Shown: piece by piece, positions 19,907-57,779 of the stretch | Numbering within the stretch: position 1 is the stretch's first letter | How the letters are laid out: each line of letters starts with the position of its first letter | Assembly (NCBI RefSeq): GCF_018446385.1 | Contig: NC_056002.1 | Span: forward strand, 38,701,671 to 38,765,670 | Direction: 5' to 3' | DNA from: Zingiber officinale | Lineage: Eukaryota > Streptophyta > Magnoliopsida > Zingiberales > Zingiberaceae | Length of the DNA: 64,000 bases | The notes under the pieces: model-generated | Told to the model about the DNA's origin: nothing | The model's input: the letters and a program-made list of their open reading frames with translations, nothing else | Database searches by the model: none | Translations under genes and position numbers: made by a program

Positions 19907-20024
19907 GGACAAGTTGAAGGCACTTTAGAGGGGAGAAATCGCCGGATTTGGAGAGAAAATCGCATGGAAAAACTTGAGTCGTGAACGAACAGAAAGTGTT
20001 CTATTCGTTTATGAAATTAGGGAT

Positions 20025-20175
20025 TTAAGGCGCCTTAGACGATGCTTAAGGTGCCTTAAGTAGACTGTTGGAGGCGCCTCGGAGATCATCCGAGGCGCCT
20101 TTAGTTGAGGCGGCGAGAGATTTCCCGCCGTGATTGAGGGTGCCTCCCTCGTGTGGGAGGCGCCTCCGACTCGCG
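20025..20175. repeat. Internal cluster of GGCGCC palindromes, Copia 1
   Basis: Repeated words AAGGCGCCTTAG, GAGGCGCCTCGGAG and CGAGGCGCCTTTAG occur here. They are the same palindrome family found in both LTRs of this element, but this cluster is internal, just upstream of ORF2 in the element's direction. Confidence 0.75.
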
Positions 20176-20184
20176 CCTATGTGT

Positions 20185-20870
20185 CTAACAGATATTTTTT
20201 AATTAAATTTTAAAAAATATTAAGTTAATTTAATTTTGAAAAAGATATTAAGTTAATTAAATTTTAAAAAAATATTAAGTTAATTAAATTTGAGAAATAT
20301 TTAAGGTAATTGAATTTGAAGAATATTTAAGTTAATTGATTAAAGTTAATTGAATTTTGAAAAATGTTTACGTTAATTGAATTTGAAAAATATTTAAGTT
20401 AATTAAATTTGAAAAATATTTAAGTTTAATTGAATTTGAAAAATATTTAAGTTAATTAATTAAAGTTAATTGAATTTTAAAAAATATTTACGTTAATTGA
20501 ATTTGAAAATATTTAAATTAATTAAATTTGAAAAATATTTAAGTTAATTGAATTTTAAAAATATTGAAGTTAATTGATTTTTTAAAAAATATTAAAGTTA
20601 ATTGAATTTGAAAAATATTTAAGTTAAATTAAATTTGAAAAATATTGAAGTTAATTGATTTTGAAAAATATTTAAGTTAATTGAATTTTAAAAATATTGA
20701 AGTTAATTGATTTTTGAAAAATATTAAAGTTAATTGAATTTGAAAAATATTGAATTTAATTTGAATTTGAAAAATATTGAAGTTAATTGATTTTTGAAAA
20801 ATATTAAAGTTAATTGAATTTGAAAAATATTTAAGTTAATTAAATTTGAAGAATATTGAAGTTAATTTTA
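20185..20870. repeat. AT-rich minisatellite, ~26-bp unit
   Basis: Roughly 25 imperfect copies of a unit close to AAGTTAATTGAATTTGAAAA plus ATATTT fill this segment of the Copia 1 interior, with unit lengths of about 25-30 bp. It sits where the pol region would be expected, between gag and ORF2. Confidence 0.85.
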
Positions 20871-21578
20871 TTTAAATTTTAACATGATTTTTAAATAATT
20901 TTTAGAGTGATTTAAATAATTTTTCAAATAACGTGATTAATTTTAATCCTTAGTTATCTCACCCGATTTAGATTTTTCAATCAAGTGATCCTATAATTTT
21001 GTGAGATGAATTAGTTTTATTATAGGGTTTGGTTTAACTTTGTATTAGATTCAGGTTTAGCTTTGGGCTCAACAAATGGACATTCTTTGGATAAACTTCT
21101 GGGCTTTGGTGAGTCACTTGGACATCATTAAAGTAACCATGCCTTCGAGATTTTCCAAATAGTCCTATCCACTGAACTTAGTACAAAACCTTGGTCTAAC
21201 TAGTTAGGATCCATAAAGGGTAGTTTCGGTCAATTTTACTTAGCCAAATGCACCAGGTCGAAGCCATATCTTCCTAGACATGCATAGACTAAGCTTCCCT
21301 AATGTACTATCATCCAATACTTCACCAGTACTGTGGGTCAAGTTAAACTTAGCTCTTTTTATTCTAGCCCTAATTACCCTACCGGGTAGGTCGCGTTCGG
21401 TTACCCTGTCGGGTAGATTTCTTTTGGAGGTGCCAGCTATTTTGGAGCCTCTCTTTATTTTCCATTATAACTTTTATTTAACTTACAGTTTGAATTATAT
21501 TCCCCTTTATTTATTAGGATGGTTTTTATTTATTTATTATTTATTTATTTGTTAAGATTATTTTTATTTATTTATTAA

Positions 21579-23231
21579 TTAAAATAATTTTTCTTTTTGC
21601 TCCCATGGATCATAGCCTCGATAAGATTTTTCAAGGTAATGTACTTGATCCTTGGGGACCCAATATTTACCAAGTCCAACTTGATTGACCAAGTTGGACT
21701 TGGGTACCCATGCTTGGACTAGTTTACTATTTGGTCTATTGACTAAGGATAGATAGAATCTATATTTCTTTTTGGATTTAAATCCTAATCCAGTTCTATT
21801 GTAAACGCCTCTTTGAGTCCTAAGAATTAGGTCAAGGTTCTTGGACCCCAAAGAAAACCGTTCTAGGGTCTTCTCTAAATCCTTGACCTGAGTTTTCAGA
21901 CTAGAATTTTCTTCCTCAAGCTTTTGGACTTGAGTTGAATTTCCAGTCTGAACTGGGTCAGGCAAGGTTATGGGGTTAGTCGCTTCTTTAAGGGAAGTTA
22001 CTTCCTTTAGAAGTGACTTGATTCGAACTTTGGACTTAGCTACTTTATGCATTAAATAATTGATTAAACTGTATAAACAACATTTACTTACAGAGGGGTT
22101 TGGCCCATCGGAAACGGATGCGGATCCATGGCTTCTCTCAAACTCGGCTTCCGATTCGTCCTTACTTTTGGTGTAGTCCCGGGCTGTCAATGCGAAGAGG
22201 CTTGCCTGCTCGACTTCTTCGTCGTCGGATTCCTCAGAAGAAGATTCGTCCCAAGTGGCCTTCAGAGCCTTCTTCCTTCTTGGTTTCTTTGGATCCTTTT
22301 GGTTCGGGCAGTTCGCCTTGATGTGCCCCTTCTGATTGCACCCGTAGCAAGTCACCTCGAATTTGACCTTTAAGCTTGATTGAGCTTCTTTGGTCTGGAT
22401 AACCCTTTTGACATCCTTTTTGTTGAAGTCCTTCTTTTTGTAGAGTTTTTTCATCAGGTTGACGAATTCGCTTGTGAGCCCGTCGTCGTCTTCCGAATCT
22501 TGTTCCTCTTCTGATTCTTGTTCGGTTCTATGTTTTGATTTTGACTCGCGTGTTCTTCCTGTACCTGTAATCAAAGCCAACTCTTTCTCGGCCGGACGTG
22601 AGTTAGTCTGTTCATAAAGCTCAAACTCAGAAAACAACTCATTTAATTTAATAATAGAGAGATCCTTAGAAACCTTGTAGGCATCTACCATGGATGCCCA
22701 CAAGGTGTTCCTCGGAAAGCCGTTTAAGGAGTACCTTATGATGTCCCGGTTATCTACCTTTTGTCCGATCGCATGGAGTCCATTTAGTAGTTTTTGAATT
22801 CGGGCGTGGAGTTGGCTAGCCGTCTCACCTTCCTGCATTTTAAAGTTATACAATTTATTAAATAACAAATCTCGCTTACTTACTTTGGTATCGGAGGTCC
22901 CTTCGTGAAGCTCGATCAGCTTCTTCCATAGCTCCTTGGCGCTCGAGAATGGACCGACGTGGTTTAGCTCCTCCTTTGTTAGTCTGCACTGGAGGGTACA
23001 AGTTGCTCTGGTATTTGCCTCCACCTTCTTGATTAATGCTGGTTCCCAGTCCTCGCAGGGTGTAGGTTTACCGTCTTTATCAGTTGGTACTTCTAATCCA
23101 ATCTTGACGATCATCCACGTCTCGAACTGGATTTTCAGGAAGTTCTCCATTCTGCCCTTCCAGTAACCGAAGTCTTCTCCGGTGTTATAACCCTCTTCTT
23201 GGGCGATTGATGCCTTGCACGACAAAAACAA
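21579..23231 (-). CDS. Copia gag (UBN2-type) with CCHC zinc knuckle
   Basis: The 550-residue frame encodes the capsid/nucleocapsid protein of Copia element 1. The N-terminal half has the UBN2-type gag pattern: FGYWKGRMENFL near residue 21, AKELWKKLIELHEG near 100, LYNFKMQEGETASQLHARI near 125, and LNGFPRNTLWASMV near 170. An acidic stretch follows, then a zinc knuckle CYGCNQKGHIKANC (C-x2-C-x4-H-x4-C, about residues 294-308), then a coiled-coil-like Lys/Glu/Leu region (about 385-460). The first ATG is not certain, since the frame could open slightly upstream. The frame ends with no protease or pol following, so particles could only be made with proteins supplied in trans. Intact length suggests it was under constraint until recently. 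Confidence 0.88.
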   Translation of the reverse strand: MFLSCKASIAQEEGYNTGEDFGYWKGRMENFLKIQFETWMIVKIGLEVPTDKDGKPTPCEDWEPALIKKVEANTRATCTLQCRLTKEELNHVGPFSSAKELWKKLIELHEGTSDTKVSKRDLLFNKLYNFKMQEGETASQLHARIQKLLNGLHAIGQKVDNRDIIRYSLNGFPRNTLWASMVDAYKVSKDLSIIKLNELFSEFELYEQTNSRPAEKELALITGTGRTRESKSKHRTEQESEEEQDSEDDDGLTSEFVNLMKKLYKKKDFNKKDVKRVIQTKEAQSSLKVKFEVTCYGCNQKGHIKANCPNQKDPKKPRRKKALKATWDESSSEESDDEEVEQASLFALTARDYTKSKDESEAEFERSHGSASVSDGPNPSVSKCCLYSLINYLMHKVAKSKVRIKSLLKEVTSLKEATNPITLPDPVQTGNSTQVQKLEEENSSLKTQVKDLEKTLERFSLGSKNLDLILRTQRGVYNRTGLGFKSKKKYRFYLSLVNRPNSKLVQAWVPKSNLVNQVGLGKYWVPKDQVHYLEKSYRGYDPWEQKEKLF

Positions 23232-23440
23232 TAAAATCTATTCCAAGACTTGGTCTTGGATTAGTAGTGCGGGAATAAAAAAAAAAATAAACTCGAATGG
23301 TGTTGCACCAGCTTCGAGCAAAACCAATTCAAGCGAGAAATAGATCGAAATATAGTAATTATACTAATTTCGGTCGACTCCGAAAAACTAAAAATACCAT
23401 GAAAAAATTGCTTAATTGGTGGTTGCACCAAATAGAAGCG

Positions 23441-23457
23441 ACCTCGTTCTGATACCA
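23441..23457 (-). other. Primer-binding site of Copia 1 (tRNA-iMet)
   Basis: The minus strand reads TGGTATCAGAACGAGGT three bases inside the 5' LTR. It matches the common plant Copia site TGGTATCAGAGC with one substitution, which sets the element's orientation. Confidence 0.9.
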
Positions 23458-23459
23458 AT

Positions 23460-24738
23460 TGTTGGATCGAAAGCGCTAGAGGGGGGAGGGGGGGGTGAAT
23501 AGCGCTCGTGGCTTTCACTCGTTTCGGATTCGTAAAACTCGAGTAATGATGCAGCGGAAATAAAATAATCACACAGAGAGACACAATGAGTTACTTGGTT
23601 CGGAGTCTGTGGCGACTCCTACTCCAAGGCCCGCGATCGTTGATCGCTTTCTGTGGGCAACAACTATAATATCGTAAATGAGAGTACAACTTTTAAGTAC
23701 AATATTAAAACTGGAATATAGATTATACTGACGAAGAAAATCACTATCTTGAAGCTTCGAGTCGTCGGGGTCTTGTCGTGGCTCAACCGGATCGTCTTAT
23801 TAGCAGCACACAGGAGAAGGATCTCTAGAGAATTGATTGTTGAAGTGCTGCCTCGACAACCCATTTTATATACTGCTGAGGGCGCCTCCAAACATGTCCG
23901 AGGCGCCTCCAGGCTGCCCGAGTCACACGCGTGGATCAACACAGAACTGGTCACACTTATCTGGTCGCACTTATCTGCTTTAAGGCGCCTCCAAGCCTCT
24001 TCAAGGCGCCTTCAAGCCTTGGTCCAAGGCGCCTCCAAGACTGCTTCACAGCCAGCTCCCGCTTTGCACCCGAGGCACCTCCAAGCTCCATGGAGGCGCC
24101 TCAGACACTGTTCATCCGAGGCTTAAGGTTGGTTTTTTGTCCTTGCAAGATGCGTCAGTCCCAAAACAACAGCATACCTTGCAAGACAATGTTAGCACAC
24201 ATAAAATATAGTAGAAACAGTAATTGACAGTCTCCGGACTGTCCGGGTCTGACTTCAGATTTCCGACCGGAAACCCTAGGTCGACTCGACGCCTACTGTT
24301 CCCTCTGCGGGAAACGCGTCCTCACCTACTCTACTCAAGAGAGTTACCTGATGCCAGTCCGGTCCTCCAGACCGACTGGACTTTCTGCCTAGGGTTATCA
24401 CCCCCTAGGACCTAGGGTTACCGCCCCCTAGGGTTTTTCTCCACCTAGGGTTACCACCCCCTAGGACCTAATGTTACCCCCCCTTAGGATTTTCACCACC
24501 TAGGGTTACCACCCCCTAGGACCTAAGGTTACCGCCCCTTAGGGTTTTCTACCACCTAGGGTTACGACCCCCTAGGACCTAGGGTTACCACCCCCTAGGG
24601 TTTTTCACCTGCCTAACAGCAGTTAGGACTTTCCTGCAATCTCATTTAAGCACATTAGATAACAAGGAACCTTAACTTTGAATCCCTTTACCATTATCAA
24701 AACTTAGATTCGATCGTCGGATGCTTCTCGCACCAACA
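23460..24738 (-). repeat. LTR of Copia element 1 (5' LTR)
   Basis: This 1.28 kb partner of 15858-17094 contains the GAGGCGCCTC palindrome cluster at 23879-24125. It also has eight or so CCTAGGG...CCCTAGG hairpin units at about 24390-24602, more than the other copy keeps cleanly. It terminates CACCAACA at 24738. Confidence 0.92.
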
Positions 24739-24743
24739 ATATA

Positions 24744-25083
24744 TATTTATTTTCACAACAATAGAATATTTGTAATAGTATTTGTGAAATTTTAAAAGTA
24801 TTTAATGATGCAATCGAACAACTTTCCGATATTTATTATCCCACTGCTCAATTAGTTTTAGAAAATTTTTCTAATACAGTATTAGTTTTAAATGAATATA
24901 TTAATAATGAATCTTTATCTCCTTGTATCTTAATTATGAAAACTAAATATGAAAATTATTTTTATTTTATTCCTGAAATTTATTTAATTGCATTTGCTTT
25001 AGATCCTAAATTTAAATGAGAAGTTTTACAAGAAATGTTAACTTTATATTATGACATTTTAATTCCAATTAAAGATGATTCTT

Positions 25084-25114
<31 letters not shown>

Positions 25115-25680
25115 TCTAGTTAATATTATATATAATGTTAGAATTTATCTATATGATATTTATAATCAATATTATGTAAAATATGGAACACAAATTAATA
25201 TTTCTGAAATACAACAAACTATTAGTAGTAATTTAAAATTTACAAAAGCACAACTTTTATTAAAAGAACGAACAAAACATCCACGAGGATCCTCAATTTC
25301 CACACAGGAACTTGAAAATTATTTTACGACTTCTTTTGATTTTAATGAAGCAGATAGCGAAAATTTCGATATCTTAAAGTGGTGGTCACAGAAGACTCAA
25401 AGCTTTCCCATCTTCTTCGTGATCACCAAAGAAATTTTAGCTTGTTCAGTGTCAACTGTTGCTGTGGAGAAAACGTTTAGTGTCAGCAGTAACATATTAG
25501 ATAAACAACGATCAACTTTGTCTCCCGACTCATTGGAAGCCTAAGCATTACTGGACAATTGGACTAGAACGGAGAAAAGAATCCAAGGAATGCAACTTTC
25601 AGATGACGAAATTAAAGATTTTGATATTGAAGGAATAAATATGACAGGAATGAGAAATGGAAGTGAGTGACAATGTAAAG
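24744..25680 (+). pseudogene. hAT transposase, 3' part (hATC dimerisation domain)
   Basis: This is the downstream half of the transposase cut at 15857. An early part (24744-25018) is homologous but ends in a stop. The open part 25035-25544 carries a poly-Ser run encoded by (TTC)n at 25080-25112, then ILKWWSQKTQSFPIFFVITK and VSTVAVEKTFSVSSNILDKQ, which is the hAT C-terminal dimerisation domain with its conserved WW and S-A-F-like core. A TAA directly after SLEA is a probable CAA-to-TAA nonsense change, because the frame continues with ALLDNWTRTEKRI. The copy is dead. Confidence 0.85.
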
Positions 25681-26059: not shown

Positions 26060-26560
26060 CATGATCCAGACAAGATGTCATATGGGGTGGCCTTGAATGA
26101 AGTTGAGGGTAGACCTGAACTAGGTCAGGGTGTCCGAATGCTCGTTGGGAGGCCCGAACTAGGTCAGGGTGACCGGACGCGGATGCTCGCAGGGAGGCCT
26201 CGGAGCAAGTCAGGGTGACCGAATGCTCGTGGGGAGACAAGGAGCAGGTCAAAAGTGACAGGACGCGGATACTTGCAAGGAGACCCAGAACAAGTAAAGG
26301 TGATCGGATACTGGCAGAAAGGCCCCGGAGCAGATCAGGGTGACCAGATATTCGTGGGGAGGCTCGGAGTAGGTCAGGGTGATCGGATGTTCGCGGGGAG
26401 ACTCAGATCAGGTCAAGAGTGATCGGACGCAGATGCCTACGGGGAGACCCGGAACATGTCAGAGTGACCGGATGCTCATGAGAAGGTCCGAAGCAGGTCA
26501 AGAGTGACCGGATACTTACAAGGAGGTCCGGACCATGAGAATAATTGTGCTTCTTCGTTT
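26060..26560. repeat. TRIM internal tandem array, ~50-bp units
   Basis: About nine or ten imperfect units carry GGTCAGGGTGACCGGATGCTCG-like cores separated by 'gggagg(c/t)ccggagca'. The core GGTCA-n-TGACC is itself an inverted repeat. In several units the flanking words also pair, for example GAGCA before and TGCTC after at about 26201-26229. No coding content is visible. Confidence 0.75.
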
Positions 26561-36315: not shown

Positions 36316-38707
36316 ATGTCTTCAGTTCCGTCGCCGGAGAACAATTCGACTTCCTCATCAACGAGTTCAAAGTCCTCGCCTATGGTGGCCGCTCCAAATG
36401 ATACTCATTCCTCTGCGTCCTCCTCATTAGAACAAGATGTCGATCCTTCTAATTCAATTTCCGCTGGACATGTTCTATCTAAAGCGACAGCCCCATTGAA
36501 GCCGCTAACCAACTCCACTCAACATGCTCAATCTAATGCGAATTTGCCAACGATCATAGGAGTTGTGGCGGGAGTTGGACTAGTTTTCATGTTCTTGGTC
36601 TTGGTGTGCATTTGTTGCGTCAAGAAGAACAACAACAAGAAGAAGAAGAGGCTCCACGACTCTATGAAATACTACGCGGATGGTTCATTCAAAGGTGATG
36701 TTATCGAATCCTTATCTAAACAAACCCAATTAAGCATTAAAACTTACCCCCTTAGAATTAATTATTCAAAGTGTTGTAAGCTTTAGACTTCGTTCTATAA
36801 GATGCATGCTTGATTGTAGATAGTGGCTTTTATGCTTCATCACTTCCCAAGTGGCACACCGGAGACCATGCCGGCGCAATGCATGGAGGAGGGTGGCATC
36901 CTCAATTGCCTCCGACTAATGATGACGATGTGAGTGTGGTCTTTTCGGGACCTCATGGTCCTCCGCCATTGCCACCTCCTTCTCCGGTCGTCGCCCTTGC
37001 TTTAAATGACAGCACCTTCACATATGAAGAGCTTGTAGCCGCCACAAGCGGCTTCTCCCCTTCCAATCTCTTAGGACAAGGAGGGTTTGGGTACGTCCAC
37101 AAAGGGGTGCTACCCAACGGGAAGGAGATCGCCGTGAAGCAACTCAAGTCAGGGAGTGGACAAGGGGAGAGGGAGTTCCACGCCGAAGTCGACATCATTA
37201 GTCGGGTTCACCATCGCCACCTCGTGTCTCTCGTCGGCTATTGCATTTCCGGAGCACAAAGAATGTTGGTCTATGAATTCGTTCCTAACAAAACTCTCGA
37301 ATACCACCTTCATGGTAAACACCAAGACTCCAAAAGAAAGCTAAGTAACTCTTTTTGTTTTTTGATGCTAAGCCTTATATATAAATTCATTGATGTAGGG
37401 AAGGGACTTCCGGTGATGGATTGGTCAAGAAGGCTCAAAATTGCATTAGGATCAGCTAAAGGCCTTGCCTACTTGCATGAGGACTGTGAGTATGAAAAAT
37501 ATACACGAAATCATCGTCATATCTAACTCGTCGTCTAAGTCAATGATCGTCATGAAATGAAGGCCATCCTCGGATCATTCATCGGGATATCAAGTCGGCA
37601 AACATTCTTATCGACCTCAAATTTGAAGCAATGGTATGGAAGCTCAATGAATGCCATCTTTAATTTCAATTCTCTCGACTTGATTGAATATGTTGAGCAA
37701 ATCATGATTAGTAATGTAATGTATATTTAGGTGGCCGATTTTGGATTGGCTAAGCTCTCGTTGGATAATCACACTCATGTTTCGACAAGAGTGATGGGAA
37801 CCTTTGGGTAAGCAAGATGGCACACTACATGTTTAGCTTGAAATGTGTTTCGATACGCGTAATCTTCTTCTTTTCTTTCCTCAATGAGTAGGTATTTGGC
37901 ACCCGAATATGCATCGAGCGGGAAGTTAACCGTGAAATCTGATGTGTTCTCATATGGGGTGATGCTACTTGAGATCATAACGGGAAGAAGACCCGTCGAC
38001 ACTCATTCATTCATGGACGATAGCCTAGTAGATTGGGTAAGTTTGTCGCAACTTAAATCTCCGTTTCATTAACTGTGCATAAGTCAAGATCAATTGTCTT
38101 ACTATTTTCGTGCCATGTGTATCGAAATATAACATCAGGCAAGGCCAATTTTGTCACGGGCATTGGCCGATGGAGACTACGATGAATTAGCCGATCCGCG
38201 CTTGAATGGCAACTACGATCCTGTGGAAATGGCACGCATGGTGGCGTGTGCCGCCGCTAGCATTCGCCATTCAGCCAAGAAGCGTCCCAAAATGAGTCAG
38301 GTGCGATTTCACATTTTGCTCCTGAATTTCGATGTATTGGTCTCGTGCATTGTAGTGCAAGCTCGCTCGGAGTCTAACTCTTGTATCGTAAATGATTATA
38401 GATCGTGAGCGCACTGGAAGGTGCTGTATCACTTGAAGACTTGAATGAGGGGGTGAGGCCAGGCCAAAGCATGATGTTCAGCTCGGGCTCAGACTATGAG
38501 ACTAGCTCATACAACTCGAGCATGAACCGCATTCGGAAAGTCGTGTTGATTCCTGAGTACACCGATGAATACAGTGGACCAATTTCGGAGTACGAACCCA
38601 CCCTTCCTTCTCCATCGAACAATGATGTCTACTCCGATGATGATGGTGATGATGATGATTTGGATCGCATTGGAAACCAAAGGCACGGACCTCATTCAAC
38701 GCTATGA
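36316..38707 (+). CDS. PERK-like proline-rich receptor protein kinase, 8 coding exons
   Basis: This is a membrane Ser/Thr receptor kinase of the PERK family, likely acting at the plasma membrane/cell wall. Exons: 36316-36694, 36820-37314, 37399-37485, 37563-37633, 37731-37807, 37892-38036, 38139-38300, 38402-38707 (1722 nt, 573 aa, all GT-AG and in frame). There is a short Ser/Thr-rich ectodomain (1-76), a membrane segment about 79-101 ([20 protein letters not shown]) and a basic stop-transfer ([10 protein letters not shown]). A Gly/Pro-rich juxtamembrane part includes PPPLPPPSP. The kinase domain starts about 192: GQGGFG (212-217), Lys233, Glu249, HRD (327-329), DFG (347-349), APE (373-375), so all catalytic residues are present. 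RD-type. The acidic C-terminus has an Asp run near 555. The ectodomain lacks the long Pro repeats of classical PERKs and no signal peptide is evident, as is common in PERKs. Confidence 0.92.
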
Positions 38708-43582: not shown

Positions 43583-45246
43583 TGATCCTGTCCGGAAACT
43601 GAGTTAGATGGACCGCCGAGTGAGGTGGATGAAATGTTGACCGAATTGCGATGTCCCGAAGGAGGGGTATGCTGAGATGGTTTCTATGTTGACTAAGTCT
43701 TCAAAAGTCCTCTGGTCAACGCTACTTATAGCCAGCGACCAGGTTACCCCGGTCCCTGGTACCCCGATGCTCGAGATAGATCCAATGAATGTATAAGTAA
43801 CAGACTAATACTAGAATAATCAAATGCATGGGGAGTGAGTACGGAAACATATCCTGGCCCAGGGGCGCCCTTGGATGGGGCGTTGCTCGAGTTGTCGTGA
43901 CCCGGAAGAGTAGATGACTCTGAGCCAGATGAAGAGCTGGATCCGATGAAGCGGAGTCGGACGCGTCATGGAGCCGGAAGTGGCGGTACGAAACTAGATG
44001 CGACCTCGGCAAGTAGGCCGGGATAAGACATCGGCACGCAGACCAGGATACGTAGGCCGAAATAATATCTCGGCACAGAGACCGGGAAATAACAACAACA
44101 AGAAGGCTAGATACAAAGCACATAGCCCGAAATACAATCGCGGCTCGAAGGCCGGAATACAACAATGGCTCGATGGACGAAACACAACGACGGTCCGATC
44201 GGAGCACAATGGTAGCGAGGGCTCGGGGGCCCGATGGCGTATACAATATGGATGACCAGAGGTGGCCTACGATGAGGAGGCAAGAGAGGTGGTGGGTCGT
44301 CGCCGTTGAGGCTATGCAAGGGCGGAAAAGGCAGTGCTTGGATGCTGACGACCCTGAAAGTGGCGACCATGTGAAGCGGCTGTGGACGCCGACGCACCAA
44401 TGGAGAGGGAGACCTCGCGTATGGCAACGGCTCGACCCGTAGTGAGGCTGAGAGGCCTGCTAGCGTCGGTAGCCAGAGCAATGTGAGGAGGAAGAAAAGG
44501 GGGTGGCACTGCTTGGCGAGGGTGGCAGCGAGCGTGCCAAGGGAAGGCTGTGCTCTTGACGCTGGAGAGGGCCGGTGGCGATCGCGGGAAGCTGTGGCAC
44601 GTGGAAGCTTCCGGCGAAAGAGAGATGCAGCGCATGGAGGTTGTCGGCGAAGGGGAGATGCGACGCGTGGAGGCTGTCGGCGAAGGGCGCTGTAGCGCGT
44701 GGGCGTCAGCATGATAAAGGGGAGACGACAGTGCGTGTTTGCCAGTGGAGGCGTGAATCCGATATCATTGTCGCAAGGAAGGAGGGAGGCAACTCGGAGG
44801 TGGTCGTCACTGGCGGTCGTCGTTCGAGGATGGCTGTGAGAGAGGGAGACGAAGCATCTTTCCTGGTTTGTGGTGGCGGCTAGAGTTCTTGCAGGCGAGA
44901 GGGGAGGGAGAGAGTAAAGGTAGAGGGCGGTGGCTCGCTGGCGATGATAGTGGCGGTGTCCTCCCCTCTTCGCGCGACGACGGCGTGAGAAAAGTAGAGC
45001 AGAGACTTAGGGAGAGAGACAGAGGAGAGGAAAGAGGACAGGCGGTGGTCGGTGTCTTCATGAAGGTGGTGGTGAGAGAGAGGGAGAAGAACCCTTCTTC
45101 TCTGTTGGTGGCAACGAGAACCCCACGAAGAAGCCAGAAAACTCCCCCCTTCTTCCCTCCTAAAAAGCCCTAATAGTATAATGACCTCCTTGCCCCTCCC
45201 TTTCTCCCCAATTCCTCCTATGCCCCCATGGGCTATATCCATATCA
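43583..45246 (-). repeat. LARD LTR (left on plus strand)
   Basis: The 1.66 kb LTR matches 48920-49361 joined to 56613-57774. Its GC-rich half (about 44200-45150) opens several overlapping frames of up to about 200 codons on both strands, but they are Arg/Pro/Ser-rich and not shared as intact frames by the two LTRs. I regard them as composition artefacts. Confidence 0.92.
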
Positions 45247-46849: not shown

Positions 46850-48535
46850 AGTCTTCAGTCGCCCCTTAAGATTGCTGATCGACTAATGCTGAGTGGAGGA
46901 AGCATGCTCGAAAGTTTATAGTCGCTGCTCGACTGTTAGAAGTTTAAAGTCTCCGATTCCCCTTAAGGAAGCCAGGTCGGTCACTTCTTAAGGTCGCCGA
47001 TCGATTAGTGTTGAGCGGAGGAAGTACGCTCGAAAGTTTATAGTCGCTGCTCGACTATTAGGTGTTTAAAGTCTCCGGTTCCCTCTAAGGAAGCTAGGCC
47101 GGTCACTCCTTAAGGTCCCTGATCGACTAGTGTTGAGCGGAGGAAGCACACTCGAAAGTTTATAGTTGCTGCTCGACTGTTAAAGGTTTAAAGTCTCCGG
47201 TTCCCCCTAAGGATGCCAGGCCAGTCACTCCTTAAGGTCCACGATCGACTAGTGCTGAGCGGAGGAAGCACGCTCGAAAGTTTATAGTCGTTGCTCGACT
47301 GTTAGGGGTTTAAAGTCTTTGGTTCCCCTTAAGGAAGTCAGGCCGGTCACTTCTTAAGGTCCCCAATCGACTAGTGCTGAGCGGAGGAAGTACGCTCGAA
47401 AGTTTATAGTCGCTGCTCGACTGTTAGGGGTTTAAAGTCTCCGGTTCCCCCAAAGGAAGCCAGACCGATCACTCCTTAAGGTCCTAGATCGACTAGTGCT
47501 GAGCGGAGGAAGCACACTCAAAAGTTTATAGTCACTGCATCACTATTAGGAGTTTAAAGTCTCCGGTTCTCCTTAAGGAAGTCAGGCTGATCACTTCTTA
47601 AGGTTCCCGATCGACTAGTGTTGAGCGAATGAAGCATGCTCGAAAGTTTATAGTCGCTGCTCGACTGTTAGGGGTTTAAAGTCTCCGGTTCCCTCTAAGG
47701 AAGTTAGGCCAATCACTCTTTAAGGTCCCCGATCGACTAGTGCTGAGAGGAGGAAGCATGCTCGAATGTTTATAGTCGCTGCTCGACTATTAGGGGTTTA
47801 AAGTCTCCGGTTCCCCCTAAGGAAGCCAGGCCGGTCACTCCTTAACGTCCTCGATCGACTAGTGCTGAGCGGAGGAAGCACACTTGAAAGTTTATAGTCG
47901 TTGCTCAATTGTTAGGGGTTTAAAGTCTCCGGTTCCCCCTAAGGAAGTCAGGGCGATCACTCCTTAAAGTCCCCGATCGACTAGTGTTGAGCAGAGGAAG
48001 CACACTCGAAAGTTTATAGTTGTTGCTCGACTGTTAGGGGTTTAAAGTCTCCGGTTCTCCTAGAGGAAGCCAGGTCCGTCACTCCTTAAGGTCCTCGATC
48101 GACCAGTGCTGAGCGGAGGAAGCATGCTCGAAATTTTATAGTCGCTGCTCGACTGTTAGGGGTTTAAAGTCTCCGGTTCCCCTAAGGAAGTCAGACCGGT
48201 CACTTCTTAAGGTCCCCGATCGACTAGTGCTGAGCGGAGGAAGCACGCTCGAACGTTTATAGTTGCTGCTCGACTGTTAGGGGTTTAAAGTTTTCGGTTC
48301 CTCCTAAGGAAGCCAGGCTGATCACTCCTTAAGGTCCCCGATCGACTAATGCTGAGCGGAGGAAACACGCTTGAAAGTTTATAGTCACTGCTCGACTGTT
48401 AGGGGTTTAAAGTCTTCGGTTCCCCTTAAGGAAGCTAGGCCGGTCTCTCCTTAAGGTTCCCGATCGAGTAGTGCTGAGCGGAGGAAGCACACTCTAAAGT
48501 TTATAGTCGCTGCTCGACTGTTTATGCTGAAGTTT
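46850..48535. repeat. LARD internal tandem array B, ~122-bp unit
   Basis: About 13-14 copies of a 122-bp unit contain GATCGACTAGTGCTGAGCGG, CGAAAGTTTATAGTCGCTGC, GGGGTTTAAAGTCTCCGGTT and CACTCCTTAAGGTCCCCGAT. Spacing measured at CGGAGGAAG near 46895, 47017 and 47139 is 122 bp. Copies differ by point changes, and the array is continuous. Confidence 0.92.
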
Positions 48536-49499
48536 AAAGCCGTTACTTGGCTATTTTAAGTTTAAAGTTGACGTTCGACTATTTTAAATTTAAAGTCGAC
48601 GTTCGACTGCTAGCCTATGATCAGAGAGCTAAGTCCCAGGACCCTGATCAGGGAGATGTACTGCTAGTCTCTACTCGGGGAGTTGTACCCTTAGTGCCTG
48701 ATTGGGGGGTTGTACTAAATCTTATGACTAAAAGAGAACATATAATGGAAAATTGACCTGTTGACTAACCGCGGATTTGACTCAGTGCTTCTACTCCCGA
48801 ATCCCCGTGGAGTGAGGGGAATCGAAATCCACCGGGGTCATGATGATGATATAGTTTTCCGGCGTCGTCCATCTTCACGTTCCAGATCAGGCGAGAGTTC
48901 CCATAGAGGGCGCCAAATTTGATCATGTTCGAAAACTGAGTCAAATGGACCACCGAGTAAGGTGGATGAAATGTTGATCGAATTGCGATGTCCCGAAGGG
49001 GGGTATGCTGAGATGACTTCTATGTTGACCAAGTCTTCAAAAGTCCTCTGGTTAACGCTACCTGTAATCAGCGACCAGGATACCCGAGTCCCTGGTACCC
49101 CAATGTTCGAGGCAGATCCAACGAATATATAAGTAACAGACTAATACTAGAATAATCAAATGAATGGGGAGTGAGTATGGAAACGTACCCTGGCCCAGGA
49201 GGCGTTCTCGGATGGGACAATGCTCGAGTTGTCTTGACCCGGAAGAGTAGATGACTCTGAGCTGGATGAAGAGTTGGATCCGATGAAGTGGAGCCGGACG
49301 CGTCATGGAGCCGGAAGTGGCGGCACGAAACTAGATGCGACCTCGGCATGTAGGCCGGGATTGTTGGTGCAATATCCCTCAGGTCAAGGTTGACCTGGGT
49401 GACCAAGCTGAGTCTTGGTTTGAGTTTAGATGTTTGACAATAAGAGATTGATTGAAGAAGAGTCAAGTAGGTCAAGGTTGACCGGATACTTGACATGGA

Positions 49500-49832
49500 A
49501 GTCCTGGTGAGTGAAGCCAGGCAGAAGGAAAACCCTAGTGAGTGAAGTTAGGTGTGAAAGTCCTGGTGAGTGAAGCCAGGTGAAAACCCTAGTGAGTGAA
49601 GCTAGGTGAAAGTCCTGGTGAGTGAAGCCAGGTGAAAGCCCTAGTGAGTGAAGCTAGGCAGATGGGAAGCCCTAGTGAGTGAAGCTAGGCAGAAGGAAAA
49701 CCCTAGTGAGTGAAGCTAGGTGAAAGTCCTGGTGAGTGAAGCCAGGTGAAAGCCCTAGTGAGTGAAGCTAGGCAGATGGAAAACCCTAGTGAGTGAAGCT
49801 AGGTGAAAGTCCTGGTGAGTGAAGCCAGGCAA
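49500..49832. repeat. Array of 12 short hairpins, two covarying types
   Basis: Twelve units follow one of two forms, CCTAG-tgagtgaag-CTAGG or CCTGG-tgagtgaag-CCAGG, separated by GTGAAAGT- or CAGATGGAAAA-like spacers. I count seven of the first type and five of the second here. In every unit the two arms match each other; the single exception (unit 2, TTAGG) keeps a G-T pair. Confidence 0.9.
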
Positions 49833-49840
49833 GGGAAAAT

Positions 49841-50043
49841 CCAGATGGATCAAGGATGATCGGACATCTGGTGTTGGGAAGTCCAAGTAGGTCAAAGGAT
49901 TGACTGGATACTTGGCATGAATAGAAAAGTCTAAGTGGGTCAAAGGGATTGACCAGACACTTGGTGGGAAGTCCTAGCAGGTCAAAGGAGTGACCAGATG
50001 CTAGGCATGATGTACCAACATGTCAAGGTTGACCGGATGTTGG
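49841..50043. repeat. Hairpins with unit-specific 7-bp arms
   Basis: Arm pairs: CCAGATG/CATCTGG (49841 and 49865), CCAAGTA/TACTTGG (49883 and 49909), CTAAGTG/CACTTGG (49931 and 49958, one T-G pair), CCTAGCA/TGCTAGG (49973 and 49999), CCAACAT/ATGTTGG (50015 and 50037). The intervening sequence is always close to GGTCAAAGGATTGACCGGA. A similar unit with GTCAAGTA/TACTTGAC lies at 49462-49494. Confidence 0.88.
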
Positions 50044-50853
50044 TTTGAGAGGCTTGGAACTTGGTTTTGGGCAAAAACCAAGTGTTGGATCGATCAGTGG
50101 ATCGATCCAGGCTTCTCCTAAGCGAACAGAGAGCCTCTGGATCGATCCGTGGATCGATCCAGATGTTCCAATCGATCAGTGGATCGATTGGGACGCGGCT
50201 GCTTCGCGCAATAAGCGCTGGATCGATCCGTGGATCGATCCAGGCGCTTTTCCAGAGCACAGAGGCGCTCTGGATCGATCCGTGGATCGATCCAAAGCCT
50301 CCCCGATCGATTGGGAACATTCGAATCGATCGGGATCCGACCGTTGGCGTCGATAAAGGCCGCAGGCGTTCATTTCCTTCGGCATCTCTTCACTGTTTCA
50401 TCTCAGATCTTCGCCAGCTCCTCCACAGCACTCTCAAAGCTCGTGATCGCCAGTTCTTGAAGGTTCTTGGAAGCTCTCCGAGTCAAGAGGCGGATCAAAG
50501 GCAAGAAGAGAAGCTAGGGTTAGGGTTTTCTGCATTCATTGTAAGCTTTGTGCTTGTATTTTGTTTCCCTTTCCTTCTTCTTGTACCGAGAGTCTTGTAG
50601 GGCTTCTCCGCCCTCGGTAGTTACCGAAAAGGAGTGTTTCATAGTGGAGGGTGCGTGCGTGGTGTGGATCCTTGGATTAGTCACCTCCTTTGGAGGTGGA
50701 TACCAAGTAAAATCCTAGTGTTAGCGTGGGCGTATTTGTTTCTGTATTTTCCGCTGCATATTCTTGAAGAAACAATCAACGCCAAGCAACGCCGAGCAAC
50801 GAGCACGCGAAGAGATATTCACCCCCCCTTCTAGCTACTTTTGGTCCTAACAA

Positions 50854-52764
50854 GTGGTATCAGAGCAAGGCCGCTCTTCACCGGAATCATCGCCGGAAGG
50901 GTCAAGCATAACAAGAAAAGCTAGAGGGGTGAAGAAGTTGGAGCAAATTCTTCAAGTTCAAGATTTTATCAAGCTCAACTTCAAGATGCAATTCCAAGAT
51001 GGATTTGGATTTGACACAAGGGTGGCTCCACCATATTCATCTACAAGCTTCGATTCTTGGAAATCAAGAATCGAAAATTTTCTTATGACGGAAATAGAGC
51101 AATGGTTTGCTCTTATGGAAGGCTTCAAGACTCCAACAAACTCAAAGGGCAAAGTTCTCAAGAGGAGCAAGTGGAGTCAAGAGCAAGTCCAAAGGTGCGA
51201 GGCCAATGACAAAGTGACCAAGCTTTTGGTCAATTTATTGCCAAGCACCATCCTTTGCAAAATTGGAGAATTTGAAGATGTAAAGGAACTATGGAGCAAA
51301 TTGGCCAAGCTTCATGAAGAGATCCCCTCCACTGTACAAGATCATGAAGAATCCGGAGAGGGTGACTCTTTGGAGCAAGATCAAGAGGAGGACTCCAAGG
51401 TTGAGAGATGCTCAACCTCCGAAGAAGAGGAAATCCAAGAAGCTTCATCCTCAAGGGAATGCACCGAAGGGAACAAGGAGGGAGCATACTCCTTGTTTCA
51501 TGTTCAAGATGATGAAGCCTCCACCTCTAGGATTGAGGGGGAGCAATCCTTGGTGACACCGGATCAAGAAGAAGGAGAAGCTTCTACATCCGGGTTAAGA
51601 GATGAAGAGATTGAAGAAGCTTCTACCTCCACGAGTCAAGAAAAATCAAATGGAGGAGAATCAAGATCGGATCAAGAGGAAGCTTCTACCTCTGGATCCA
51701 AAGAGAAAGATGTCACCCCTACGAGCAAAGGTATAAATATTTCAATTAAAAATAAAAATCATATTATATGCTTTGAGTGTAGGGAACATGGGCACTACAA
51801 GAGCAAGTGCCCTATATTGGCCAAGAAGAAGGGCCAAGTGGCATAAAAGGGCAAGGCGAAGCCCAAGGAGATCATCCCCAACACAAAGAAGAGCAAGGAG
51901 CATATTATATGCTTCTCTTGCAATCAAAAGGGGCATTACCGAAGTCAATGCCCCAAAGGGAAGAAGATGGTCAAGGCTCAAGGAGGCATTCGTCAAGGGG
52001 GAGCCTCCAAGGTAAAGAAGAAGGTAACATTTATTGAGCCTACCCCTTTACATTATGGTGAAAAGCATGATAGTTCTAACTTTTATCATTTTAATGCAAT
52101 TTACCATAAGAATAGAAAGCATGAGGGCTTTAAGGAAAAATATGTGGCTCTACATGCCAAAACTACCCAACCTAAGGTTAGGAAGGTAGATAGACACTTG
52201 AGCAATAACTCTAAAGATAATAGACACATGCCCAAGATCAAAAATGCTCATGGACCAAAACCTAAGGATTTAATGATAGAAAATCAAGTCTTGAGGTCAA
52301 GACTTGACAAACTAGAAAAGACCCTAAAAAGGATGGAGAATATCCTTAAAGGGCAAAATGAGCAATACCTAGGGCTAGGAGCACAAAGGTCATTCAATGG
52401 CTATAGAGGTTTAGGATACAAACCCAAAGCTAAAAAGGATGTGTCTAGTTATCATCGGGTTCCATATAGCTATGGAACAAACCCTAAGTCTAGAGGTCAA
52501 GTCAAAGATACAAGGGAAGATATCCCTAGAAGTATCTTTGCAACCAAAGTGACTAAGACTTCTAAGAAGTCTAAGAAAGTCACTAACAAGGTCACAAGGG
52601 AGGCTATCCCTAGAGTTGACCTAGAAAGTGTGACCAAGGCTTCTAAGAAGCCCAACAAGGTCAGTAGGAAGGTATCTAGGGAAGTTATCCCTAGTAAGTA
52701 CCTAGAGCATCCAAGGAGCACCAATAGGTGTTGGGTTCCTAGGAGCATCTTCTCTACCCCATAG
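50854..52764 (+). pseudogene. Copia 2 gag with an in-frame stop between two zinc knuckles
   Basis: One reading frame runs from 50854 to the stop at 52762-52764, interrupted only by TAA at 51844-51846. The N-terminal part (about residues 60-160) is UBN2-like gag: FDSWKSRIENFLMTEIEQWF, FEDVKELWSKLAKLHEE. A long Glu/Ser-rich linker follows. The first zinc knuckle CFECREHGHYKSKC lies just before the stop. The second, CFSCNQKGHYRSQC (about 51911-51952), lies after it, then a Lys-rich tail. Both are C-x2-C-x4-H-x4-C. The first codons overlap the primer site, so the true ATG may lie downstream, for example at the one encoding MQFQDG. Decay or readthrough are both possible; I favour decay. Confidence 0.85.
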
Positions 52765-55130
52765 ATGGGTTAGAGAGTGTCAACTCCGATTAGAAGGGTA
52801 GTTAACCTAACTTTGAGGAAATTGACACTCAAGGAGCATTTTCAAGGTTTTTGTTAACTTTTGAAAATGAAGTGGATCTTTGTTTACTCCTTGAAAGAGT
52901 AAAATGTGTCTAATGGTGAAAAATTGATTTTATCTTAAAATGGCACAAATTGGGAAAACCTTGAGAAATACCAAGTTGGGATTTTGGTATTCTCTTGGAA
53001 ATTTAAGGCAATACGGGCCTTAATTTAAAAGTGCTACTCTTGAGGAAAAATGGAATATGCCAACATTTGAGGACATGTTTATTTTCAATTTGCATACATT
53101 AAATCAAGGAAATTAGAAATGCCAATTTAGGCTTTGGCATTCTCTTGTAGCACTTTAGGGCAATCTAGGTTTAAGGTGTAAGTTTAGCTAAGACTTTAAT
53201 GATACTTAGATAGTTAATTTAGGTATATTTTATTTATGCTAAATCTTGCCATGATTGTTTGCCCATCATATGCCATGACATCATGTCTAGTTTTACATTC
53301 ATGTTTTATTATGAAAAATCCAAAAATACCATGTCATGACATTCATACATCATGTAGTAATAGGATATTTTCTTTTGAAAATTATTTTCTTTTGATATAT
53401 GCCATAACATAATCATGCATTAAGTTTAATTCCTTATAATTAAGGACAAATGACATTTAACGACACTTATTGACAAGTGACATCCTAGGTGGATGTCTAA
53501 TATTTCTAAAATGCCTAGATAAAATGCCTAGATAGATATGCATGATCCCTAGATTAGGGCAAAAACCAAAATCTACATCTCACAAAGACTATAAGGTGAC
53601 TTGTATGTGTTTTGTCCACAATAGATACAAGTGAGATGTTAGGATGATGAACAAAACTCAACATGTTGATTTAGTGCATTCTTTTGAGTTTTTAGGTTCA
53701 TCAAAACACATAGTTATGTGTTTTCCCATCATTGGGAAAGCTAATGTACAAGTCATGTGCATTATGCCCAAGGAACATGATGGGATATTGGTTTTGAAAA
53801 TGTTTTTAAAATGTTTTTGGAAAACTTTGGTGAAGGCTATCTTTTGATAGTAATCACCATTGAATAGTTAGACACAAACCTGAAGAAAAACACTAAAGTT
53901 TTTGCAAGTTTTCAAGTTTGTGTCAATCTTTGAAAATATGATGTATTTTCATAGAAAGCTATTTTTCCATGATTAAGTATGCCCTAAATAATGTCTACAC
54001 GAAATTTCATGATTTTTGGATTTTTGTAGAATTTTCTAGGGGTTTCTGAAGTTGACTGAAATGGAATTTCAGCAACTATCAGAGCTCCGATCGATCCATG
54101 GATCGATTGGAGTGCCCGAATCGATCCGTGGATCGATTCAGAAGGCAAGTCTCCCGCGAGCAGAAGCTCGCTGGATCGATCAGCCGATCGATCCAGGTAG
54201 TCTGAATCGATCAGTGGATCGATTCAGAAAGGTTCAATCGATTGGAACCCAACTCCAATCGATCCAAGTTGCTGATTTTGGCTGTGAAGGCTTGATTTCA
54301 GCATCTTTGAACCTCTTTAAGTCTAGGTAACCATTCCCAAACCCTAAAATACATTTGTATACATACAAAGGGTGTTTTCATGTGAAAACAAGGATGGATT
54401 GGTTAAGGAAGGCTTCATAGAAGTTTAGGTTGAGGTTGTTTCAAATTTTGAATATTTGAACCTCAAAACTTCTAAATTTAGGTTTCCTAAAGGTTTAGGA
54501 ATTCCAAGTCATTGTTGGTGCAATGACAGAAGTTACCACCATGTCTTTATGGGGAGGGACTCTTTAAAGACATGAAAAATTACTTTTCATGAACCTTGGA
54601 AGGTGGTTAACCTTCTTTAAAGAAAATGCTCATGTATGAGCTTTTGAACTTAAAATGGGGAGTGGATATCCTCATTATTTCAAGTGGGAACTCAAGTGAT
54701 TAGATAATGCTCAAGGTTGGGTATTTGTCTACATTGAGGGAGAAGTTAAGGATAAATGAAGGGTATGGGACCTTCATTATCGTGTTGATCACAACGAGTG
54801 ATGTTGTGAACAACGATGAGCAACTCTTCAGGGGGAGAGTTTCAACAAATGGATTTGTTGATGTGTACCCAAAATTGGGGCATGGGTTGATGTGTGCCCA
54901 AAGATGGGTTGATGTGTGCCAATAGGGGGAGAATGAAAGGACCTATGAATGGGTGTAAGTTAGGCTTTCATTACCTAGAGGGAGTGTGCCCTCGTAGGGG
55001 GAGAATGAAGAGCTTAATTTATATGTTCATTACCTAGTGGCATGAAGATTGAGGCTATAGGATTAGCCTAACTTACATGTGGTATTGTAAGTGTTATTGT
55101 GGTATTGTCAAACATCAAAAAGGGGGAGAT
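52765..55130 (+). other. Non-coding interior of Copia element 2
   Basis: This 2.4 kb lacks any protease, integrase, reverse transcriptase or RNase H signature. It contains a second cluster of (A/G)(A/G)TCGATCC...GGATCGAT(C/T) palindromes at 54087-54262, like the LTR cluster. The final 14 bases are the purine tract AAAAAGGGGGAGAT. Several 'gggggagaatgaa' phrases lie at 54925-55010. Confidence 0.8.
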
Positions 55131-56607
55131 TGTTGGTGCAATATCCCTCAGGTCAAGGTTGACCTGGGTGACCAAGCTGAGTCTTGGTTTGAGTTTAGAT
55201 GTTTGACAATAAGAGATTGATTGAAGAAGAGTCAAGTAGGTCAAGGTTGACCGGATACTTGACAGGGAAGTCCTGGTGAGTGAAGCCAGGCAGAAGGAAA
55301 ACCCTAGTGAGTGAAGCTAGGTGTGAAAGTCCTGGTGAGTGAAGCCAGGTGAAAACCCTAGTGAGTGAAGCTAGGTGAAAGTCTTGGTGAGTGAAGCCAG
55401 GTGAAAGCCCTAGTGAGTGAAGCTAGGCAGATGGAAAGCCCTAGTGAGTGAAGCTAGGCAGAAGGAAAACCCTAGTGAGTGAAGCTAGGTGAAAGTCCTG
55501 GTGAGTGAAGCCAGGTGAAAGCCCTAGTGAGTGAAGCTAGGCAGATGGAAAATCCTAGTGAGTGAAGCTAGGTGAAAGTCCTGGTGAGTGAAGCCAGGCA
55601 AGGGAAAATCCAGATGGATCAAGGATGATCGGACATCTGGTGTTGGGAAGTCCAAGTAGGTCAAAGGATTGACTGGATACTTGGCATGAATAGAAAAGTC
55701 TAAGTGGGTCAAAGGGATTGACCAGACACTTGGTGAGAAGTCCTAGCAGGTCAAAGGAGTGACCAGATGCTAGGCATGATGTACCAACAGGTCAAGGTTG
55801 ACCGGATGTTGGTTTGAGAGGCTTGGAACTTGGTTTTGGGCAAAAACCAAGTGTTGGATCGATCCAGGCTTCTCCTAAGCGAACAGAGAGCCTCTGGATC
55901 GATCCGTGGATCGATCCAGATGTTCCAATTGATCAGTGGATCGATTGGGACGCGGCTGCTTCGCGCGATAAGCGCGGGATCGATCCGTGGATCGATCCAG
56001 GCGCTTTTCCAGAGCACAGAGGCGCTCTGGATCGATCCGTGGATCGATCCAAAGCCTCCCCGATCGATTGGGAACATTCGAATCGATCGGGATCCGACCG
56101 TTGGCGTCGATAAAGGCCGCAGGCGTTCATTTCCTTCGGCATCTCTTCACTGTTTCATCTCAGATCTTCGCCAGCTCCTCCACAACACTCTCAAAGCTCG
56201 TGATCGCCAGTTCTTGAAGGTTCTTGGAAGCTCTCCGAGTCAAGAGGCGGATCAAAGGCAAGAAGAGAAGCTAGGGTTAGGGTTTTCTGTATTCATTGTA
56301 AGCTTTGTGCTTGTATTTTGTTTCCCTTTCCTTCTTCTTGTACCGAGAGTCTTGTAGGGCTTCTCCGCCCTCGGTAGTTACCGAAAAGGAGTGTTTCATA
56401 GTGGATGGTGCGTGCGTGGTGTGGATCCTTGGATTAGTCACCTCCTTTGGAGGTGGATACCAAGCAAAATCCTAGTGTTAGCGTGAGTGTATTTGTTTCT
56501 GTATTTTCCGCTGCATATTCTTGAAGAAACAATCAACGCCAAGCAACGCCGAGCAACGAGCACGCGAAGAGCTATTCACCCCCCTCTAGCTACTTTTGGT
56601 CCTAACA
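55131..56607 (+). repeat. 3' LTR of Copia element 2
   Basis: Near-identical to 49362-50852. It repeats the hairpin array (about 55269-55603) with independent changes. One unit reads CTTGG with CCAGG and one former CCTGG/CCCTAG spacer base differs, but arms still pair by standard or G-T pairs. It lacks 12 bp in the palindrome cluster. Confidence 0.94.
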
Positions 56608-57779
56608 GGGATAAGACATCGACACGCAGACCGGGATAAGACATCGACATGTAAGCCGAAATAAGATCTCGACACGTAGACCGAGAAATAACAACAAGAA
56701 CAAGACTAGATACAAAACACAAGTCCGAAATACAATCACGGCTCAAGGTCGGAATACAACAATGGTTCGATAGACGAAACACAGCGGCGGTCTGATCGGA
56801 ACACAATGACAGGAAGGGCTCGAGGGCCCGATAGCGTATACAATGTGGATGACCAGAGGTGGCCTACGATGAGGTGGCAAGAGAAGTAGTGGGTCGTCGT
56901 CGTTGAGGCTATGCGAGGGAGGAGAAGGTAGTGCTTGGATGCTGACGACCCTGAAAGTGGCGACCACGTGAAGCGACTGTGGACGTTGGCGCGCCAATGA
57001 AGAGGGAGACCTCGCGTATGACAGCAGCTCGACCCATAGTGAGGCTGAGAGGCCTGCTAGCGTCGGTAGCAAGAGCAACGTGAGGAGGAAGAAAAGAGAG
57101 CGACGTTGCTTGGCGAGGGTGGCAGCGAGCGGGCCAAGGGAAGGCTGAGCTCTTGACGTTGGAGAGGGCCGGTGGCGATCGCGGGAAGCTGTGGCACGTG
57201 GAAGCTGTCGGCGAAAGAGAGATGCAACGCATGGAGGCTGTCGGTGAAGGGGAGATGTGACGCGTGGAGGCTGCCGACGAAGGCCGCTGTAGCGCGTGGG
57301 CGTTTACGTGAAAAAGGAGAGACGACCGTGCATGTTTGCCAGTGGAGGCGTGAATCTGACGTCGTTGTCACGAGGAAAGAGGGAGACGACTCGGAAGTGG
57401 TTGTCGTCGACGGTCATCGTTCGAGGATGGTTGCGAGAGAGGGAGATGAAGCATCTTTTTTGGTTTGTGGTGGCGGCCGGAGTTCTTACAGTCGAGAGGG
57501 GAGGGAGAGAGTGAAGGCAAAGCGTGGTGGCTCGCCGGCGACGACAATGACGGTGTCCTCTCCTCTTCACGTGTCGACGGCATGAGAAAAGTAGAAAGAC
57601 TTAGGGAGAGAGATAGAGGAGAGGTGATGTTCGACGTCTTCGCGAAGATGGCGACTGGAGAGAAGGAGAAAAACCTTTCTTCTCTGTTGGCAACGGCGAG
57701 AAACCCACGAAGAAGCTAGAAAACTCCCTTTCTTCCCAATTCCTCCTATGCCCCCATGCTCTATATCCATATCACATAC

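Follow-up and report, generated by a model that had tools for sequence, protein, structure and literature searches.

How do the palindromes of Sirevirus promoters stay palindromic while their sequence changes? An array of hairpins in the genome of ginger (Zingiber officinale) makes this question countable: tens of thousands of its unit cores lie in one genome, and RNA selection, DNA selection and copying between arms predict different counts, while covariation within a repeat family alone does not establish that an RNA structure is selected. The array is part of the 64,000-nucleotide window, by which we mean the whole stretch of DNA that was analysed, and every hairpin named in a first-pass annotation of that window was found at its position. 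The LTR begins at 49362 (TGTTGG) and not, as had been proposed, at 49380, where the first palindrome CAGGTCAAGGTTGACCTG is located (49380-49397; all array features are on the plus strand). It is followed by the long hairpin H1 (49462-49494; arms GTCAAGTA/TACTTGAC, inner palindrome GGTCAAGGTTGACC, GGA bulge), twelve short hairpins of two arm types round TGAGTGAAG (49503-49829), and the long hairpins H14 (49841-49871; CCAGATG/CATCTGG, inner GATCA/TGATC, variable among family copies), H15 (49883-49915; CCAAGTA/TACTTGG), H16 (49931-49964; CTAAGTG/CACTTGG), H17 (49973-50005; CCTAGCA/TGCTAGG) and H18 (50014-50044; ACCAACAT/ATGTTGGT, in the 3' LTR ACCAACA-GG...TGTTGGT). The last five, with their private arms, had been described as each paired, which holds save for one T.G pair in H16. 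The form CCTRG-TGAGTGAAG-CYAGG, ascribed to all the short units, is present in eleven of the twelve, the one at 49534-49552 ending in TTAGG; their types CCTAG..CTAGG (7/12) and CCTGG..CCAGG (5/12) are arranged in higher-order repeats. Each long unit combines an outer arm of 7-8 bp with an inner stem of 5-6 bp, and on its 3' side a GGA/AGA bulge is conserved. The inner stem is GGTCAA..TTGACC, except for GATCA..TGATC in H14, itself a two-sided change. What had been taken for a conserved loop is mostly this second stem, itself a palindrome, followed by the bulge.

The long-unit arms differ yet mostly stay complementary, as had been claimed; this held both in the window and in the genome sample described below, so that simple tandem-repeat decay does not account for it. 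In the six long units of the window, 41 of 42 outer arm positions are Watson-Crick pairs and one is T.G, and the true assignment of right to left arms is the only one of 720 to reach such pairing. A covariation count over seven rows, few in number, from one element and related by duplication, gave 98.8% paired cells, with 6 of the 8 outer pairs changed on both sides. The covariation score was 0.509 compared with 0.241 ± 0.040 for shuffled controls (0/500 as high) and at most 0.124 for the slid control, which is biased in favour of covariation because the structure was read off the same sequences. One of five covariation measures, further pair types, was not above shuffles (10 vs 11.1). We regard the arm covariation of the long units as very probably real. 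Five perfect stems of at least 7 bp occur in 49362-50060 (mean 0.48, maximum 3 in 300 Markov sequences), and RNA folding of the array gave a z of -6.0, with 0/20 shuffles as good. The short 5-bp units provide no stem of at least 8 bp, their case being one of repetition. A third, decayed array at 26117-26510 has units of the form arm-GGTCAgggTGACC-GGA-arm with GAGCA/TGCTC arms; its own-partner pairing was 26/54, against a permutation mean of 30.1, and it lent the covariation no further support.

The array occupies the U3 of the 5' LTR of element A (49362-56607, plus strand), an apparently gag-only, pol-less Ty1/copia LTR retrotransposon. Its 5' LTR (49362-50852, TGTTGG...CCTAACA) is 97.9% identical to the 3' LTR (55131-56607), which carries the same array at 55149-55812; between the two there are 17 substitutions and 15 gap columns. 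The LTR ends and a 5-bp target site duplication, GGGAT, on both flanks (49357-49361 and 56608-56612) were read from the sequence. The host site is itself a repeat, with flanking pieces at 48920-49361 and 56651-57737 and a further copy at 43583-45157. Upstream of the element, 13.5 copies of a 122-bp tandem repeat with 87% matches fill 46877-48522.

The sequence landmarks of element A identify the array, with very little doubt, as the palindrome-rich U3 cis-region of a Sirevirus (Ty1/copia) LTR. For the comparison we took the landmark list from the excerpted text of Bousios et al. 2010 (PMC2829016). The primer binding site (50853-50866, plus strand), an intervening AGTGG followed by TATCAGAGC, fits the Sirevirus 5' junction (ATTGG or AGTGG plus TATCAGAGC). 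The multiple polypurine tracts of Sireviruses are present, as four copies of AGGGGGAG in the linker (at 54830, 54924, 54996 and 55121, within 54830-55128 on the plus strand), the last of them 10 bp before the 3' LTR; two more such octamers lie inside gag at 51536 and 51996. The att site AT/TG is found at the 3' LTR (AGGGGGAG-AT-TGTTGG), and an inverted repeat of 14 bp, TATTGTCAAACATC, surrounds the junction of polypurine tract and 3' LTR (left arm 55103-55116), with four bases between arm and octamer whereas the excerpted description has them bordering. A polyC-rich integrase signal, TTCACCCCCCC, ends the LTR, its C run starting at 50822. In place of the mid-LTR TATA box that follows the CpG island, element A has only a weak TATA-like GATAAAGG at 50352, compared with TATATAA in the LTR of element B, a second element in the window. 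Directly upstream of GATAAAGG lies a CpG-rich, repeated-motif-like cluster of GATCGATC palindromes (50086-50334, plus strand), and a second such cluster is found in the linker (54089-54263, plus strand). The excerpted PMC2829016 reports linker clusters solely for envelope-bearing members. A second copy of the nonamer TATCAGAGC (54077-54085) immediately precedes the linker cluster.

The first-pass annotation had seen in the array a candidate for an undescribed system. Palindromic repeated motifs (RM) upstream of the promoter are, however, a described hallmark of Sirevirus LTRs, and the array is therefore a variant of a known, palindrome-rich kind of promoter. According to the excerpted text of PMC2829016, RM boxes are high-copy and dyad-symmetric, lie in CpG islands that precede the promoter within the upstream half of the LTR, share a single consensus in each element (identity among copies 66.5-100%, mostly >85%) and contain a CGG-CCG core in all but Tnd-1; promoter action is suggested for them. 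The 5' LTR of element A contains 19 hairpin units that are likewise palindromic, present in at least eight copies and upstream of the promoter. As in that account, symmetry is kept while sequence differs between elements, and there is an additional cluster in the linker. Unlike the RM described there, units within one LTR carry different matching arms, a left CGG is present in none of the long units of the window (a right CCG in H1 and H18 only), and the array lies outside a CpG island, being nearly CpG-free (observed/expected 0-0.12 in windows starting 49362-49862). An RM-like CpG island adjoins it (GATCGATC, like the ACAATCGATTGT of Tnd-1; 1.20-1.48 in windows starting 50062-50262). In maize Sireviruses the cis-region is described as a palindrome-rich hotspot of small RNAs that evolves rapidly and forms hairpins (Bousios et al. 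2016, via PMC10760457 and PMC5311732), and the array shares its place, hairpin formation and fast evolution; the excerpted texts of these two sources do not mention the arm-by-arm covariation that is present in element A. Unit-to-unit arm covariation in an LTR array was not found in the literature at the level of titles and abstract openings, and we make no claim of its absence. The best Rfam match scored 32.7 bits, against a gathering threshold of 61.

Element A is non-autonomous and gag-only, and the plant family to which it belongs is hugely amplified. Its 4.3-kb interior contains a gag remnant on the plus strand (50914-52764, start codon not fixed) that includes the gag N-terminus, two CCHC knuckles and a coiled coil and lacks most of the capsid middle; an in-frame stop (51844-51846) splits it into two ORFs. 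Pfam returned Retrotran_gag_2 below cut-off for gag (E 0.005) and a CCHC knuckle above cut-off for the second ORF (E 0.00012). No pol domain was found in the five internal forward ORFs scanned, and the remaining internal forward ORFs are shorter than 100 aa. Element B (15858-24740, minus strand) is a second gag-only, Sirevirus-like element, with LTRs differing by 72 substitutions; its gag is a clear copia gag (E 5e-15), to which BLASTP aligned the start of the element A gag with 38% identity over 90 aa, the knuckles and coiled coil also being similar. A protein search returned one public relative, P0001, a 210-aa piece on a 1,056-base contig with a similarly shortened layout (47% over 81 aa and 52% over 77 aa). 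Searches of viral contigs gave nothing useful, and a genome-contig search gave four prokaryote matches, at about chance level, that we did not use. Large retrotransposon derivatives (LARDs) and TR-GAG elements are non-autonomous LTR elements with gag only or without coding capacity, and a conserved structured internal RNA has been reported for LARDs, which are gypsy-related. Element A is also non-autonomous and gag-only but carries Sirevirus landmarks.

We searched the 3.09 Gb assembly (211 contigs) for further copies of the array. Thirty LTR copies (L005-L034), 88-100% identical and including the window's own two, were aligned; 40 of 7,936 candidates had been scored, and L001-L004 were left out of all counts. 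The alignment of family copies that had been proposed as a check was informative at unit H14, the arms of the other units hardly varying. By eye, H14 has perfect 7-bp arms in 17 of 30 copies and a 5-bp version in L021, L024, L026 and L029; in L031 and L032 its arms form direct rather than inverted repeats and are unpaired, and in the remaining copies they are altered or not resolved. L028 differs from the four copies with the 5-bp version at four adjacent bases, a difference that creates the 5-bp pairing. Such a cluster is what a template switch would give, and it makes one candidate event, the change being unpolarised. In L027 the inner palindrome of H14 is deleted and the outer parts are joined.

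The unit core GGTCAAN{0,6}TTGACCGGA occurs 57,538 times in the genome, compared with 3 occurrences of the reversed control pattern. Units were picked by position and not by arm sequence, using the 30 leading places of contig C1 and 40 stretches at further listed places; in the resulting 70 partly overlapping loci, duplicates of the same 100-nt context were removed. Among 281 long units, 158 have perfect outer arms of at least 7 bp, with 10 arm sequences among them. Own Watson-Crick pairing of the 92 distinct long arm pairs was 0.705 vs 0.449 when permuted (maximum 0.526 of 2000); that of the 76 distinct short arm pairs, from 336 short units in 59 loci, was 0.629 vs 0.539 (maximum 0.600). The recurring matched states are CCAAGTA/TACTTGG (37), CCAAGTG/CACTTGG (25) and TCAAGTA/TACTTGA (24), and more rarely CCTAGCA (9), CTTAGCA (5) and CTAAGTG/CACTTAG (5); since copies are not independent, these tallies count states and not events. 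Several matched types are one pair apart (CCAAGTA-CCAAGTG, CCAAGTA-TCAAGTA, CCAAGTG-CTAAGTG, CCTAGCA-CTTAGCA, ACCAACA-ACCAATA and CCAGATG-CCAGGTG), and every such close step from one matched state to another is a transition. Arms are mostly matched in the lineages that spread.

Hairpins are also in excess in the body of the element, counted as perfect stems of at least 8 bp with loops of 3-50 and at least 3 G/C. There were 9 in gag (4.7 per kb; 1.44 expected) and 11 in the linker with the GATCGATC cluster excluded (5.0 per kb; 0.98 expected), compared with 3 vs 1.26 in the left flank (1.1 per kb), 7 vs 5.9 in the gene region and 0 vs 0.34 in R-U5; the right flank, with 6 vs 1.75 (1.8 per kb), is not free of excess. 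In gag plus linker the excess peaks at short spacing (13 vs 1.1 for loops of 3-10) and has disappeared beyond 100 bases; an excess of direct repeats is also present, smaller at short spacing (4 vs 1.1). Some of the spacing and G.T/A.C counts likewise leave out the GATCGATC linker cluster. Element B showed a weaker excess (gag 3 vs 0.74; other internal parts 9 vs 1.43), and its gag hairpins were not significant by another threshold. Protein sequence or codon use was rejected as the main cause of the gag hairpins: 10 and 8 were observed against synonymous-shuffle means of 2.3 and 2.5 (maximum 6 and 7 of 200; repeat test 0/200). Both zinc knuckles are encoded in perfect hairpins (51790-51812 and 51930-51954), with one free third-position pair that differs between them (C-G vs T-A); we do not count these hairpins as selected, as the GH..CP protein motif itself forces four pairs.

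Further gag copies were compared without the window's own locus (L005) and, for pair changes and shared places, without L006 (linker); pair-change, variant and shared-place counts omit alignments of <86% identity or <150 bases. Each of the 19 copies (of 22) that reach 1,300 bases has 5-11 stems of at least 8 bp (at least 2 G/C), vs 0.9-2.2. Four places are common to 20-22 of the 22 copies, so the gag hairpins are old. Across the 22 copies, paired cells showed 169 one-sided and 6 two-sided changes; with one-sided changes dominating, there was no sign of ongoing correction in these stems. We had taken fewer substitutions at paired gag sites (3.6% vs 6.9%) and the third-codon-position shared variants (13/84 vs 108/411) as proof of selection and withdrew both; low substitution at paired sites does not prove selection, because defining the hairpins on the window copy is by itself enough to bias it downward. 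Past template switching is the leading, tentative idea for the hairpin excess of the element body, gag included. A plant mobile-domain ORF at 18953-19633 (minus strand; Transposase_32, below cut-off) has a hairpin excess of its own, 5 vs 0.8 in synonymous shuffles.

The first-pass annotation had proposed that either maintained structure or a copying process keeps the arms matched. Copying is a serious candidate, and RNA selection is the option we favour least, although the smaller of our samples leans towards it. Selection on plus-strand RNA would act on the 3' U3 of the genomic transcript, for packaging, stability or evasion of processing, with stepwise compensation through G.U pairs, and would thus be expected to leave more G.U than A.C among the states that spread. 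At the innermost CCAAGTR pair, the one pair so examined, exact patterns counted genome-wide for the two mismatched states gave the opposite, 2,466 copies of A.C and 348 of G.T; the C1 sample contained A-T 9, G-C 20 and neither G.T nor A.C. Among the first 100 matches listed per state, 29 pairs of A.C places and 5 pairs of G.T places were seen by eye to lie 5-6 kb apart on one strand. Because A.C places are more often spaced like the two LTRs of one element, A.C appears amplified and G.T mostly private, and the spread of the unmatched A.C state indicates that matching is not strictly required even at the DNA level. The perfect stems in the interiors of elements A and B (34 vs 5.1 expected) show no G.T excess over A.C and are strand-symmetric in this respect (G.T 6 vs 2.1; A.C 8 vs 2.4). 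The minus strand folds as well as the plus, z averaging -1.9 to -3.1 over element parts on both strands and about 0 in the gene region, and in the predicted RNA fold of the array a number of short units pair with other units instead of within themselves.

On the other side, arms covary in window and genome sample, the array folds far better than shuffles, and H16 of the window is the T.G state between the matched CCAAGTG and CTAAGTG types of the genome sample. Distinct one-mismatch types with at least three copies in the C1 sample lean towards G.U (4 vs 0 A.C for long units, 6 vs 3 for short, 10 vs 3 together), a lean that speaks against a DNA-level reading; the rarer types are G.U 13 and A.C 17. 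For the long-unit mismatch table alone, arm pairs with <5/7 Watson-Crick positions (22/92) were omitted. Shared variants at paired gag sites likewise favour RNA selection (G.U 12, A.C 6, other 10). Weighing these counts, we consider it likely that the matched arms are not mainly due to selection on plus-strand RNA, and that rival itself unlikely.

The motif TTGACY corresponds to WRKY-type W-boxes. Selection on protein-binding palindromes alone would preserve inverted pairs of such boxes, the outer arms hitchhiking from the origin of each unit. TTGACY/RGTCAA reaches 15.8 per kb in the array compared with 1.66 in the window, and regulatory boxes of retrotransposons are said often to be dyad-symmetric (PMC2829016, excerpted text). 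This rival leaves unexplained why outer arms vary yet match; moreover, W-boxes are missing from the arms and loop of the short units and from the whole 5' LTR of element B, which makes such selection a distinctly unlikely sole cause. Least probable of all is an absence of any maintenance, each matched type having arisen once and been amplified whole with parallel C-to-T decay on both strands mimicking compensation: such an origin, raised in the first-pass annotation as a ground for refutation, does apply to the twelve short units (CCTAG/CTAGG and CCTGG/CCAGG, two types accounting for 101 and 98 of the 336 in the genome sample), and all close steps are transitions and the arms of inserted copies decay singly, but at least six one-pair steps connect matched states (states, not proven events) and independent decay would make mismatched states commoner than the 158/281 perfect long units allow.

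We therefore favour, with a probability of roughly 0.6, a reading as DNA-level promoter palindromes that active lineages keep matched in their arms, perhaps through a combination of template-switch copying and selection. Within an LTR, units would multiply through tandem duplication, and a few lineages would spread them further by retrotransposition. Active lineages would mostly keep the DNA dyad-symmetric, as paired half-sites, whatever the sequence of the arms. After a mutation in one arm, its partner may come to match it, most simply through a template switch, in replication or reverse transcription, that copies arm onto arm; lineages with matched arms would spread in turn, probably owing to a putative role of the palindromes in the promoter. 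An origin and upkeep of hairpins by template switching is described in the excerpted text of Monttinen and Loytynoja 2022 (PMC8794818), for microRNA and rRNA genes and not for retrotransposons; it predicts stems that are perfect, and compensatory changes that alter several bases at once. That it was the main source of the matched arms is an inferred step to which we give slightly less than even odds. Stepwise compensation or parallel C-to-T decay could also give the all-transition steps, which counts against the DNA-palindrome reading. The LTR pairs of elements A and B ruled out repair of the arms by host DNA replication after insertion. In element A the two LTRs differ in single arms and without compensation; in element B, where one LTR has 6/7 units with full pairing and the other 3/7, the differences are again single and uncompensated. 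A broader and rather doubtful extension is that replication of the retrotransposon lineage perfects short imperfect inverted repeats genome-long, the U3 arrays being the amplified, visible part. If so, the same process would have filled gag and linker with perfect hairpins, and the symmetric boxes of Sirevirus promoters would come from retrotransposition itself, acting as a maker of palindromes.

The U3 of element B contains at least seven CCTAG-gggtggtaac-CTAGG hairpins, including an A-T/G-C compensated pair, together with the TATATAA box and GGCGCC palindromes, and its gag coding frame holds a perfect 14-bp stem with a 6-base loop (21670-21703, minus strand). Elsewhere in the window, a hAT dimerisation domain is located at 25035-25544 and a protein-kinase ORF at 36810-37526.
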